Below the pieces are notes generated by a model. That model was not told the origin of the DNA, searched no databases, and saw nothing but the letters and a program-made list of their open reading frames with translations. A DNA stretch of 64,000 bases from a virus: the IMG/VR virus record IMGVR_UViG_3300036766_000416, positions 1 through 64,000 of that record, one strand, 5' to 3'. A program made the position numbers and the translations under genes. Of the stretch, positions 37,350-46,703 are shown piece after piece; within the stretch, counting starts at the first letter, position 1, and each line of letters begins with the position of its first letter.

Positions 37350-39257
37350 TTACGCAGGAGCAAAGCCCCTGTCCAGAGACCGCAAATAGCTCGATTCGCC
37401 GCTCCTGGCTGGGGGCATATTTTGATGTGTGGTAGTAGAGTTTGTGGTCTGGTTTTTCACATTATTGATGATTGTTGGTGCCACGATACCCTGTGTCGCG
37501 GGTGTCATAGCTGCATTTCTTTGAAGATCATTCGCTTGCGTGAGGGTTTGTCCTGTCTGTGGAGTCGCCGCCGGAAGTTCGGTGGGTGACGATGACATGA
37601 GGGTTTGAGGTACACTGCTATTCTCATAGGAATTTTCACCACCCATAGATGCAGGTGTTACAGACGAACCAGTTTGGCCTACGATAGCATCCAACCTCGC
37701 TGCGTCATCCCCAACAGCAGTCGGTGATTCGGACTTTGTTTTAGCTTCACCCATGAGCCAATCAGAGACAGACTCTTTGGCCATGGTCATCAGGCTGGGC
37801 AACCTTTCGGCGATCAGAGGATCGGTGAATGGATCAGCGTTGTAGATTTCCATATACGCATCACGTACCAGTGAGGCCACCAGTGACGGGATAGCCGCGC
37901 CAGGAATTGGAAGTGCTCCAGCGGCGTCGATGCCCGCACCCACCAGATCACCTTGAAGTAAGCGTGATGCAGCGAACGCAAGACCTACTGCGGACCCCAC
38001 TACAGGGATCAAAGTTGCAGCTTTCGACCCCAGAATCTTCGGAGCGATTCTTCCGAGGACCCCGGCAATTTTACTCTTGGGGGCAATCTTAGCCACCCCC
38101 TCAACGGCGACACCCACACCTTTGGTGATCTTGGAGGCGCTGCTGAGTTCTTTTGCTGCAATTTTTCCGGCAGCTTTTTCTCCGGCTTCTCCAACAACCT
38201 TCGCACCAGTTCCCAGGATTTTACCTGCGAGATCCTTGACACCACCTATAATGGCTTTTCCACCTTTGAGAATGGCTGAGCCTCCTTTGGTGACCGCACC
38301 TATTGCACCCTTACCTAAGGATTTCAAGGCACCGGTGATGGAGGGAAGAAGTCTGGTCAATGCTCCACCGAGAAGTGATAGTGGATTGAGGAGTTTACCC
38401 AGTGAAGCTGCGAATTCTAAAGCTGCGGCACCAAGTATCTTGAACCACCCCATGAGCGTTTCGAGCCAGGAGGGACCTTCTTTTTTCTCCTCGCCTTTGA
38501 TAATTTGTTTGGGTGTAACCTTTTTGAATTTTGCGCTTTCAGCAGCTTCTTTGTCCCTGATGCGTTCTGCTTCTGCCTTGGCTAATCCAACTCCCTGCTC
38601 CTCAAATTTTTCTATGTTATGGAGCGACAACACCATTTTTTCTAATAGATTGAGAACCTTTGTTGAAGAGACTGGCGAGGCACCACCTTCCGTGCCCTCG
38701 TTTGCTGGGCTTGGGCTTCCGGCTGCCCCTGCAGCACCATCCAGACCTGGAGGAAGGACACCTTGTAAACCCGCTGCACTGCGTATTGATTGCTCAGAGC
38801 GACCCATGATGCGGCCAGCCAAGACAGTAGCGAGCTTTGAGCCACCGGTGAGTCTGTGAACGATGTTGAGAGGATCGAACCGTTTCTTGATTGATGTTTT
38901 GATTTTTCGAGTTTTGAATCCTGCAGCAGCGCCAATTGCACCCTTGACGGAACCTCCACCCGCGAGGTGTTCGGCTGCTACATCAGCCATTGTGTTTTCA
39001 CGTTGCTGACTTTCGACTATTCGGCTTCTAATATTTCTGAGGGCTGCAAGGATTTCTTTTTTTGTTTCTTTTCCAAGTTCTACTTTAGGAGGTTTGGGAT
39101 CTTTAGGAGCGCGAGGGGTTGGACGGTGCTCGTGTTTGATGTTCGCCTTGGCCACTTCTTCCACGGGCTTTGTTTGCGAGGCAATTTTCTCAAGGCTCTC
39201 GCGCATGTCAGCAAACTGATCTTTCATATCTTTGAATGGGTCTTTTTCTTCAGCCAT
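37350..39257 (-). CDS. Tape-measure-like virion structural protein
   Basis: This encodes 635 residues. The N-terminal charged helices (FKDMKDQFADMRESLEKIAS) lead to a long Gly/Ala/Leu-rich hydrophobic middle (about 265-470) and a C-terminal low-complexity part with INNVKNQTTNSTTTHQN, common in tail tape-measure and inner tail proteins. T4 gp29 is 590 residues and neighbours gp48, as here. ATG 39257 lies 5 nt after TATAAATA with no ribosome site. Confidence 0.55.
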   Translation of the reverse strand: MAEEKDPFKDMKDQFADMRESLEKIASQTKPVEEVAKANIKHEHRPTPRAPKDPKPPKVELGKETKKEILAALRNIRSRIVESQQRENTMADVAAEHLAGGGSVKGAIGAAAGFKTRKIKTSIKKRFDPLNIVHRLTGGSKLATVLAGRIMGRSEQSIRSAAGLQGVLPPGLDGAAGAAGSPSPANEGTEGGASPVSSTKVLNLLEKMVLSLHNIEKFEEQGVGLAKAEAERIRDKEAAESAKFKKVTPKQIIKGEEKKEGPSWLETLMGWFKILGAAALEFAASLGKLLNPLSLLGGALTRLLPSITGALKSLGKGAIGAVTKGGSAILKGGKAIIGGVKDLAGKILGTGAKVVGEAGEKAAGKIAAKELSSASKITKGVGVAVEGVAKIAPKSKIAGVLGRIAPKILGSKAATLIPVVGSAVGLAFAASRLLQGDLVGAGIDAAGALPIPGAAIPSLVASLVRDAYMEIYNADPFTDPLIAERLPSLMTMAKESVSDWLMGEAKTKSESPTAVGDDAARLDAIVGQTGSSVTPASMGGENSYENSSVPQTLMSSSPTELPAATPQTGQTLTQANDLQRNAAMTPATQGIVAPTIINNVKNQTTNSTTTHQNMPPARSGESSYLRSLDRGFAPA

Positions 39258-39270: not shown

Positions 39271-40152
39271 TCACAGAAACGGAAGGTCTCTTTCGGTGAG
39301 CACTAGGAATTCCCAACCCTGGTCTTTGGCGAATATTGTGGCCGCGGCAAACTTTGCTTGATTGGTGGCTACAATTGCAGCCTCTTGTAGCAGTTTTTGC
39401 GACCTTCGTTTTGATTGACGTAGCACCGTATCATTAAAAGGTTTTATTTCGATGATAAAGACCTTGATACCTGTCTTTGTTTGAACCTTGGTTAGAAAAT
39501 CTGGATAGTATGTTCGTTGTTTCTGTTTGACGGGGTCAAAGTAAGGTATTTTTAATTCTTCGCTAGACCAAGAGATCGTGGCCGGAGATTCGTCGATCCA
39601 ATACATCACCCTTTTCTCCCACATAGAACGATACACGATTGTCTTGATATTCCCAACGTATTTTGTTGGGTTACGTGGGGTAAAAAACCCTTTGTAGGTC
39701 ATTCTTCCGTTATTCATTCTAAACGCTCCTCTTGTTGCCATAGATAGGGCAATTTTCTTGTATCGAGCATCGTAAAATTGCTGTAAAATCTCAGGAGACG
39801 ATTCTTTATGCCAACGATGGATGCTATTACGGGCAAGTTCTTGTCTTTGTTCTAGGGTCAATCTATTAGTATTCTTCTTTATTAGTTGTTCTTTTGACAT
39901 CAGACTATTTTGTAACCTTATAGTTTGTCCTATCTTTGTTCTTATATTAGCCCCCTCTACTGTCTCTTCCCTCTCTTTCCACAGTCGTTCCATGTTACCT
40001 CGAACCTTTTCTACAAATTGGGAATGCCGTATGGGGTCATTTTTGAGTTTGAGTCTATACAGCTTGGCCGCACAGGACCTAGAGCAACATGGTTGTTTGG
40101 TGGTAGGGATGTGGCAGAATTGGCACTGACCGAGGGTATAAATATCCGACAT
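39271..40152 (-). CDS. gp4-type head-completion nuclease with zinc-finger N-terminal extension
   Basis: This encodes 293 residues. The C-terminal 150 or so (GFFTPRNPTKYVGNIKTIVY, ISWSSEELKIPYF, TYYPDFLTKV, FIIEIKPFNDT) matches the T4 gp4/50 head-completion family with its PD-ExK-like core. The N-terminus adds about 130 residues with CQFCHIPTTKQPCCSRSCAA and a Lys/Arg helical linker resembling homing-nuclease DNA-binding modules. GGGAGG supports ATG 40152; ATG 40209 is 4 nt after the late box. Confidence 0.75.
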   Translation of the reverse strand: MSDIYTLGQCQFCHIPTTKQPCCSRSCAAKLYRLKLKNDPIRHSQFVEKVRGNMERLWKEREETVEGANIRTKIGQTIRLQNSLMSKEQLIKKNTNRLTLEQRQELARNSIHRWHKESSPEILQQFYDARYKKIALSMATRGAFRMNNGRMTYKGFFTPRNPTKYVGNIKTIVYRSMWEKRVMYWIDESPATISWSSEELKIPYFDPVKQKQRTYYPDFLTKVQTKTGIKVFIIEIKPFNDTVLRQSKRRSQKLLQEAAIVATNQAKFAAATIFAKDQGWEFLVLTERDLPFL

Positions 40153-40213
40153 AGCTGGACCTCCCGAAAGGTTTAGAGTGTCTGGGGTGGCGAAACCCGC
40201 GAGGCACATCTTC

Positions 40214-42006: not shown

Positions 42007-42756
42007 ATGGCGTTACCCAAATTAACAGTGCCTCTGTATAATATCATGTGTCCGTCAGGATTGAAAGTCTCATTTAGACCATTCCTTGTCAAAGAAGAGA
42101 AACTTTTGATGATTGCCATGCAGTCAAGTGAAACAGAGACTATCATCAACACTGCTAAACAGATTCTTGAAAATTGTATTGGTAGTGTTTCGGGCATCGA
42201 TATTGATAAATTGCCCCTCTTCGATGTTGAGTTTTTGTTCCTGAATCTCCGGGCCCGTAGCATCGGTGAGCAAGTGACCTTGAGGTATAAGTGTAATCAA
42301 TCTGTGATTGATGCGAACACTGGTAATACAGAAATTTGTAATACCGTATCAGAATATCCCGTTGACTTACTGAGCATCCACCCGACGTTTGGTGTAGATC
42401 ACAACAAGTATATCCAATTGACAGAGAAGGTGGGCATCACCTTGAGATACCCTACATTCAAGGCATTTCGCAATATTGCTCGTCGAGACCTCCCAACCGA
42501 TGAGGCGTTTGCGTTTCTTGTGGAGTGTATTGAATCGATCAATGATAGCAATAGTGTAATTTTCACCAAGGACGTACCGGAATCCGAGGTGATCGAATTT
42601 ATCAATGATTTAAGTCATGCACAAGTCGAGAAGATGGATCATTTTTTCGACACGATGCCAAAGATTGAATTGACACTGCATTTCAAGTGCCCGAAGTGTC
42701 AGCACACAGAGGAAATTGTGGTGTCGGGGCTAGACAGTTTTTTCGTCTCATACTGA
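42007..42756 (+). CDS. 26: gp26-like baseplate hub protein (zero-frame product)
   Basis: This encodes 249 residues. KVSFRPFLVKEEKLLMIAMQ is the signature of the T4 baseplate-protein family (gp26-type), with a C-terminal zinc-like FKCPKCQHTEEI. The last codons contain T TTT TTC (42738-42744), where a -1 shift would join it to the frame that continues to 42941. AGAAAGG precedes the ATG. Confidence 0.82.
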   Translation: MALPKLTVPLYNIMCPSGLKVSFRPFLVKEEKLLMIAMQSSETETIINTAKQILENCIGSVSGIDIDKLPLFDVEFLFLNLRARSIGEQVTLRYKCNQSVIDANTGNTEICNTVSEYPVDLLSIHPTFGVDHNKYIQLTEKVGITLRYPTFKAFRNIARRDLPTDEAFAFLVECIESINDSNSVIFTKDVPESEVIEFINDLSHAQVEKMDHFFDTMPKIELTLHFKCPKCQHTEEIVVSGLDSFFVSY

Positions 42757-42941
42757 ACCATGATAATCTAGCGAACTACTACACCACAACGTTCGCTTTG
42801 GTTCAGGATCATAAATTTTCAATATCGGAACTTGAGAACCTCATGCCGTGGGAACGATTGGTGTATTTGACATTGGTGCAGCAACGTGTTGAAAAAGAGA
42901 ACGAACGAATCAGAGCCCTTAACGTACAAAGGAAACGATAA
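42744..42941 (+). CDS. Frameshift extension of gp26 (gp51-like tail)
   Basis: This -1 frame encodes 65 residues (RLILNHDNLANYYTTTFALV..., then MPWERLVYLTLVQQ and a charged end) with no start codon before an internal Met. It can be reached by -1 slippage on the heptamer T TTT TTC in the gp26 end, ten bases before the gp26 stop. The product would be a hub protein with a helical C-terminal domain, like tail-assembly chaperones made by frameshifting in other phages. Confidence 0.7.
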   Translation, partial: RLILNHDNLANYYTTTFALVQDHKFSISELENLMPWERLVYLTLVQQRVEKENERIRALNVQRKR

Positions 42942-46400: not shown

Positions 46401-46703
46401 ATGGGATTACCTGTTGTCAGAATGGGAATTGACATGTGCAGCGGGCATCCTGCTGGGCCGACGTATTTTCCTCCACGACCTGCAATTCAGGGGTCCACTG
46501 ATGTATTTGTTGATGGTCTTCCTGTTGTGCGTGTAGGGGATGTTTGGGCGATGCACACCGATATCATTAGTGTCCATTCAGGTCATGGTGTCTTGGGTTC
46601 TTTCACGGTCTTCTGTAATGGGCGGCCTGTTATGCGTATTTCGGACCCACTGGACTGTGGTTCGGTGTGCGCGATGGGTTCTTCGACTGTGTTTTGTGGA
46701 TAA
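46401..46703 (+). CDS. PAAR spike-tip protein
   Basis: This encodes 100 residues. GHPAGPTYFPPRPAIQGSTD, VFVDGLPVVRVGD, HTDIISVHSGHG and VFCNGRPVMRISDPLDCGS show the repeated PAAR pattern with His/Cys metal ligands. It caps the gp5 beta-helix and sharpens the spike, like gp5.4 in T4. Confidence 0.88.
   Translation: MGLPVVRMGIDMCSGHPAGPTYFPPRPAIQGSTDVFVDGLPVVRVGDVWAMHTDIISVHSGHGVLGSFTVFCNGRPVMRISDPLDCGSVCAMGSSTVFCG

Follow-up and report, generated by a model that had tools for sequence, protein, structure and literature searches.

In phage lambda, the tail-assembly chaperones G and GT are made as a short form and as a longer one that a 3'-terminal stretch of the gene extends in the -1 frame, with G GGA AAG as the slippery heptamer. 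Among T4-like phages, frameshifting is reportedly conserved in several groups, and T4 itself is said to use genes 26 and 51, which encode homologous short and long proteins. An excerpt of PMC3004832 lists T4 gp26 and gp51 as hub assembly chaperones, with gp51 absent from the final particle, and neither the short nor the long chaperone form of lambda is found in the virion according to a passage of PMC5009743. The work of Vladimirov, Gautam and Davidson (Virology 2022), available here through its title and the papers citing it, points by that title to a non-frameshifting mechanism for T4-like phages; the PRFect paper cites it for T4-like phages of which some have distinct genes for the short and the long form, and an excerpt of the phage Adele paper (PMC12846349) cites it for polyT -1 signals in T4-like TAC-N genes. 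The same excerpt likewise describes a conserved -1 shift with a polyT motif, GTTTTT, at the end of TAC-N in Vandenendeviridae and Andersonviridae, phage families other than that studied here. An earlier note on this DNA had known of no such arrangement for gp26/gp51; as seen through these citing papers, frameshifting was already in print for T4-like phages, so that our case is a further member and not new in kind. Our literature search for a gp26 and gp51 frameshift yielded only papers on unrelated phages, as judged by title.

The window, i.e. the whole 64,000-nt stretch of DNA that was analysed, belongs to the lineage of an uncultured virus and carries a gene pair of the same kind as TAC-N/TAC-NC of T4-like phages (Table 1). 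As in lambda G/GT, a conserved in-frame -1 heptamer near the 3' end is followed by a protein-coding -1 extension, but the heptamer is T TTT TTC, gp26 (249 aa) is the larger protein and extends past its chaperone-like domain into a second part, and the gene that follows is not the tape measure. T4, in contrast, has genes 26 and 51 separate and no heptamer at the end of 26. We consider it very likely that -1 programmed frameshifting at T TTT TTC produces a short and a long tail-assembly chaperone at this locus, as for lambda G/GT. The frameshift proposed in the earlier note was supported by a conserved slippery site, a gp51 tail under selection and the lack of a conserved start for that tail.

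Table 1 Features of the gp26/gp51 junction (positions in the window)
Feature	Position	Strand	Details
gp26, short form (TAC-N), frame 0, 249 aa	42007..42756	+	PF12322 E 2.3e-56; phrog_150 E 4.8e-63, profile positions 5-233
Slippery heptamer T TTT TTC	42738..42744	+	Phase X_XXY_YYZ; conserved in relatives
TGA, frame-0 stop of the short form	42754..42756	+	
gp51-type tail, C-terminal domain of TAC-NC, the predicted long form	42744..42941	+	-1 frame, 65 codons and TAA at 42939-42941
Weak Shine-Dalgarno-like run GGGG, possible stimulator	42726..42729	+	8 nt upstream of the slippery site
Predicted two-part stem-loop	42753..42806	+	42753-42760 with 42799-42806; 42770-42776 with 42791-42797; -17.7 kcal/mol, z -3.0

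The heptamer lies 9 nt ahead of the gp26 TGA, in frame for a tandem slip of Phe-tRNAs, and both its site and the junction coordinates had been given correctly in the earlier note, as had the 65-codon extension in the -1 frame up to its TAA. Since the window contains 15 copies of TTTTTTC where 15.8 are expected, the heptamer alone proves nothing; its abundance was dropped as evidence, and it is conservation that carries the case. A second in-frame T TTT TTC was found within gp26 (FFDTMPK, 42642-42648), where a -1 slip leads to a stop at 42666.

Relatives were collected by scanning viral contigs with gp26 peptide patterns away from the junction, which gave 80 loci. Two of these (L014 and L081) were excluded because their contigs end before the junction, and the remaining 78 together with two Synechococcus phage records and the window made up 81 junctions. 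T6C or T6T was present in phase at all 81, 0 to 24 nt ahead of the stop, and the -1 frame went on for another 56 to 73 codons wherever its end is visible (at L074 the contig ends first). A separate search of this kind, made with the 65-residue tail, also returned 80 loci, and at every one of them the heptamer (T6C in 78, T6T in 2) stands exactly 6 nt ahead of the codon with which the tail begins. Nine contigs, compared by name, were common to both scans, and the distinct junction sequences including the window numbered 56. The look for the heptamer in related phages that had been suggested earlier was positive at every locus of these two scans (81/81 and 80/80). A sequencing error or a broken gene would account for the frame break itself and nothing more; the same break at all loci of both scans, drawn from many datasets and with both frames under selection, refuted this explanation, whose probability is practically nil.

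Annotated phage records picked by hand (20; L084-L103) extended the comparison. The heptamer was present in 14 of them, covering pelagiphage, Methylophilales, Vibrio, Aeromonas, Caulobacter, Sinorhizobium, Pseudomonas and Stenotrophomonas phages, one unassigned phage and cyanophages, and was absent in the other six. Klebsiella May, Vibrio K493, Salmonella S115 and Serratia Kevin keep the tail in the -1 frame without six T, while in T4 and an Acinetobacter phage of the T4 type gp26 ends without the heptamer and the tail is not in that place. The four that keep the tail are Ackermannviridae-like records (L086, L087, L089, L094), in which the tail is gp51-like and four T stand where the others have six. 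With the six heptamer-less records left out, 95 junctions entered the statistics and were reduced to 48 representatives below 80% identity. In each of the 48, the first Phe codon was TTT and was preceded directly by T, compared with TTT at 325/528 Phe codons and a final T in 1367/1977 two-fold NNY codons elsewhere in the same genes. Other FF dipeptides of the same proteins were encoded as T TTT TTN in 6/43 cases, which indicates that the conserved thing is the site and not the FF peptide; at the FFxTMPK position, that of the second heptamer of the window, 2/24 relatives had the heptamer.

The -1 frame had been called protein-like in the earlier note, and this was borne out by selection and by family membership. 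Among 11 sequences of the window's group of relatives, pN/pS was 0.19 for the -1 tail and 0.26 for gp26, whereas the other two frames of the tail stretch gave 1.4 and 2.2 and were interrupted by 48 and 55 stops. The protein encoded in the -1 frame is under purifying selection. The tail matched phrog_634 (baseplate hub assembly catalyst) with an E value of 2.9e-22, the single such match in the whole 178,609-base record, which contains one gp26 and one gp51 tail; no second gp26 or gp51 was found in this record, which may be a fragment. The phrog_150 profile continues over the shift, with positions 5-233 in frame 0 and 234-278 in frame -1, and the predicted fusion aligned to it as one stretch (5-278) with 245.7 bits, compared with 214.2 for gp26 alone. 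Since T4 gp51 aligns along positions 13-280 of phrog_150, it represents the long protein as a single gene. When profiles were compared directly, the tails gave a weak match to T4 gp51 (probability 14.6, E 0.0019), and the match of the gp26 alignment was stronger (probability 89). On these matches, the window locus is assigned to the gp26/gp51 family of T4-like phages.

An alternative explanation is that gp51 is a separate small gene with a start of its own, which ribosomes reach through coupling or reinitiation once gp26 has terminated. In the records of S-SM2, S-ShM2 and P-SSM4 a nearby ATG is indeed annotated as the start of a gene of its own, named baseplate hub assembly catalyst, and 19/48 representatives have an ATG in the -1 frame between -60 and +45 of the stop. 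However, the annotated starts vary by record and fall downstream of where the conserved tail begins, homology sets in at the slip point, and a separate gene leaves the fixed heptamer unexplained. Over the interval from the preceding -1 stop to tail residue 14, moreover, 27/28 loci of the window's group lack an ATG and 20/28 lack any ATG, GTG or TTG. In the window, the -1 frame is open already from 42669, inside gp26, and the earlier statement that no start codon precedes an internal Met held for ATG (first at 42843) but not for GTG (42687 and 42696, both inside gp26) or TTG (42798); the GTG codons are not conserved as starts in the window's group. Separate translation is thus very unlikely as the general explanation. 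As only 44 of all 81 loci compared for starts lack an ATG over the same interval, and 33 lack any start, the tail may have its own start in some lineages. A start for the second frame, or a separate ATG gene in relatives, had been named beforehand as counter-evidence: the former is not conserved in the window's group, whereas the latter is annotated in some relatives.

The predicted fold of gp26 is supportive of a chaperone role, though at a level below what counts as safe. The AlphaFold2 model of gp26 (pLDDT 85.8) resembled the HK97 tail assembly chaperone 2ob9 over residues 1-86 (Z 6.9, rmsd 4.1, 83 residues), although a Z under 8 can reflect a common arrangement. The first ~90 residues also matched 3fgx (Z 7.3) and 3klu (6.8), which we take to be chaperone relatives, as well as 5ir0 (5.5), with all other rows at 4.3 or less. 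Foldseek found many matching gp26-type viral models and no PDB match at E below 0.001 (E 0.81), and a sequence search for a solved structure gave nothing convincing (best E 0.1). The label of hub gene used in the earlier note would fit less well than that of a tail-assembly chaperone pair. Frameshifted chaperone genes of the G/GT kind are usually, though not by strict definition, neighbours of the tape measure gene. In the window, the following gene encodes a DNA end protector (phrog_429) and not a tape measure, while in HTVC008M and Cr30 the annotated tape measure lies one small gene beyond gp51. A 635-residue protein with hydrophobic glycine-rich stretches, encoded at 37350-39257 (-) on the strand opposite gp26, is possibly the tape measure; it was without match in the phage collection. 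Two further genes were observed in this region: a TnsA-like endonuclease domain (PF08722, E 2.1e-18) at 39271-40209 (-), beside the tail genes, such a gene being present ahead of gp26 also in Synechococcus phage RB11-B, and a PAAR-motif spike tip protein (PF05488, E 5.7e-15) at 46401-46703 (+), directly after a gp5-type protein (PF06714).

Downstream of the slippery site, the predicted stem-loop starts 8 nt after the heptamer, and in relatives its outer stem can reach the columns equivalent to 42750/42809. Compared with synonymous shuffles, 15/19 distinct sequences of the window's group reached z below -1.5, which the other four (L106, L108, L128, L130) did not; gp26 control stretches of the same group did so in 5/46 cases, against shuffles with codon pools mixed across GC contents. 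In the alignment, 87% of stem cells pair, compared with 24 to 42% in slid versions, and one outer-stem pair was seen as U-A, A-U, C-G, G-C and G-U. The number of stem cells changed on both sides (18) was reached by 0/500 shuffles, whereas the 4 pairs in which such double changes occur were not an exceptional count (73/500 shuffles). Taken together, these comparisons indicate that the putative stem-loop of the window's group is covarying. It also bears on the proposal that RNA polymerase, rather than the ribosome, slips on the T run and adds a base. The run is indeed homopolymeric, and at four loci (L028, L031, L066, L083) nine T are followed by C and then directly by TAA. Polymerase slippage requires about eight or more such bases, and most sites, with six T and then C, are short for it; the phase is always X_XXY_YYZ, and in the window's group the covarying stem-loop stands at ribosomal spacing. 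We regard slippage of the polymerase as highly improbable overall, and as more plausible at the four loci with nine T than elsewhere.

The extent of such structure across lineages was assessed with the 48 representatives and codon pools of the same locus, in place of the test with pools mixed across GC contents. Where the heptamer stands directly at the stop, mean z was -0.46 (n=21; 6/21 below -1.5), while heptamers with a gap to the stop gave a mean of -1.97 (n=27; 13/27 below -1.5). The two sets differed with a Mann-Whitney p value of 0.002 overall and 0.013 outside the window's group, a comparison that ignores phylogeny and serves as a lead only. A general downstream structure was rejected, as structure is found in some lineages only. 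Upstream of the heptamer, anti-Shine-Dalgarno pairing was above the synonymous mean in 35/48 representatives (Wilcoxon p value 5e-5) and the putative stimulator was absent in L028 and L066; the Shine-Dalgarno-like run is weak as a stimulator, and a Gly codon explains most of the effect. We tentatively suggest, as a possibility short of probable, that the heptamer was retained among gp26/gp51 phages infecting very different hosts and that the stimulating signals turned over meanwhile. In this reading, some lineages with the stop right behind the heptamer (TTT TTC TAA) would mostly do without downstream structure, others, including the window's group, would combine a gap with a covarying stem-loop, and the Ackermannviridae-like records would retain the -1 tail despite having lost or never had the T6 run. 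No earlier description of the covarying stem-loop or of stimulator exchange was found in the literature searched, which consisted mostly of listings and included Vladimirov et al. 2022 through citing papers.

In the mechanism that we propose from the sequence, most ribosomes would terminate at 42754 and release gp26 (TAC-N, 249 aa). A minority would slip back one base at T TTT TTC with both Phe-tRNAs re-pairing, which the stem-loop starting 8 nt further on, and possibly also the upstream purine-rich run, would aid. These ribosomes would read 65 more codons into a 311 aa gp26-gp51 fusion (TAC-NC) with the junction GLDSFF-RLIL. The longer version is thus probably made by some ribosomes; that slippage occurs on the ribosome, and at what rate, is what we infer. 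By analogy with lambda G/GT, many short and few long copies may cover the tape measure protein and bring in subunits of the tail tube.

Overall, the window locus adds a well-supported case to a strategy described in relatives of T4, and these T4-like phages, unlike T4, appear to use frameshifting. Frameshifting would also explain a 2010 comparison in which, according to an excerpt of PMC3037559, cyanophage gp51 reached only about 20% of the length that it has in non-cyanophages. The annotation of the records examined presents the gp51 tail as a gene apart, shortens it or omits it, so that the long chaperone is missing from the annotations of abundant aquatic phages. If stimulator turnover is true, one frameshift would provide a natural series for the exchange of stimulators without loss of the long product. 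For tests of tail assembly in T4-like phages, the alignment supplies the exact junction and a candidate covarying stem-loop.
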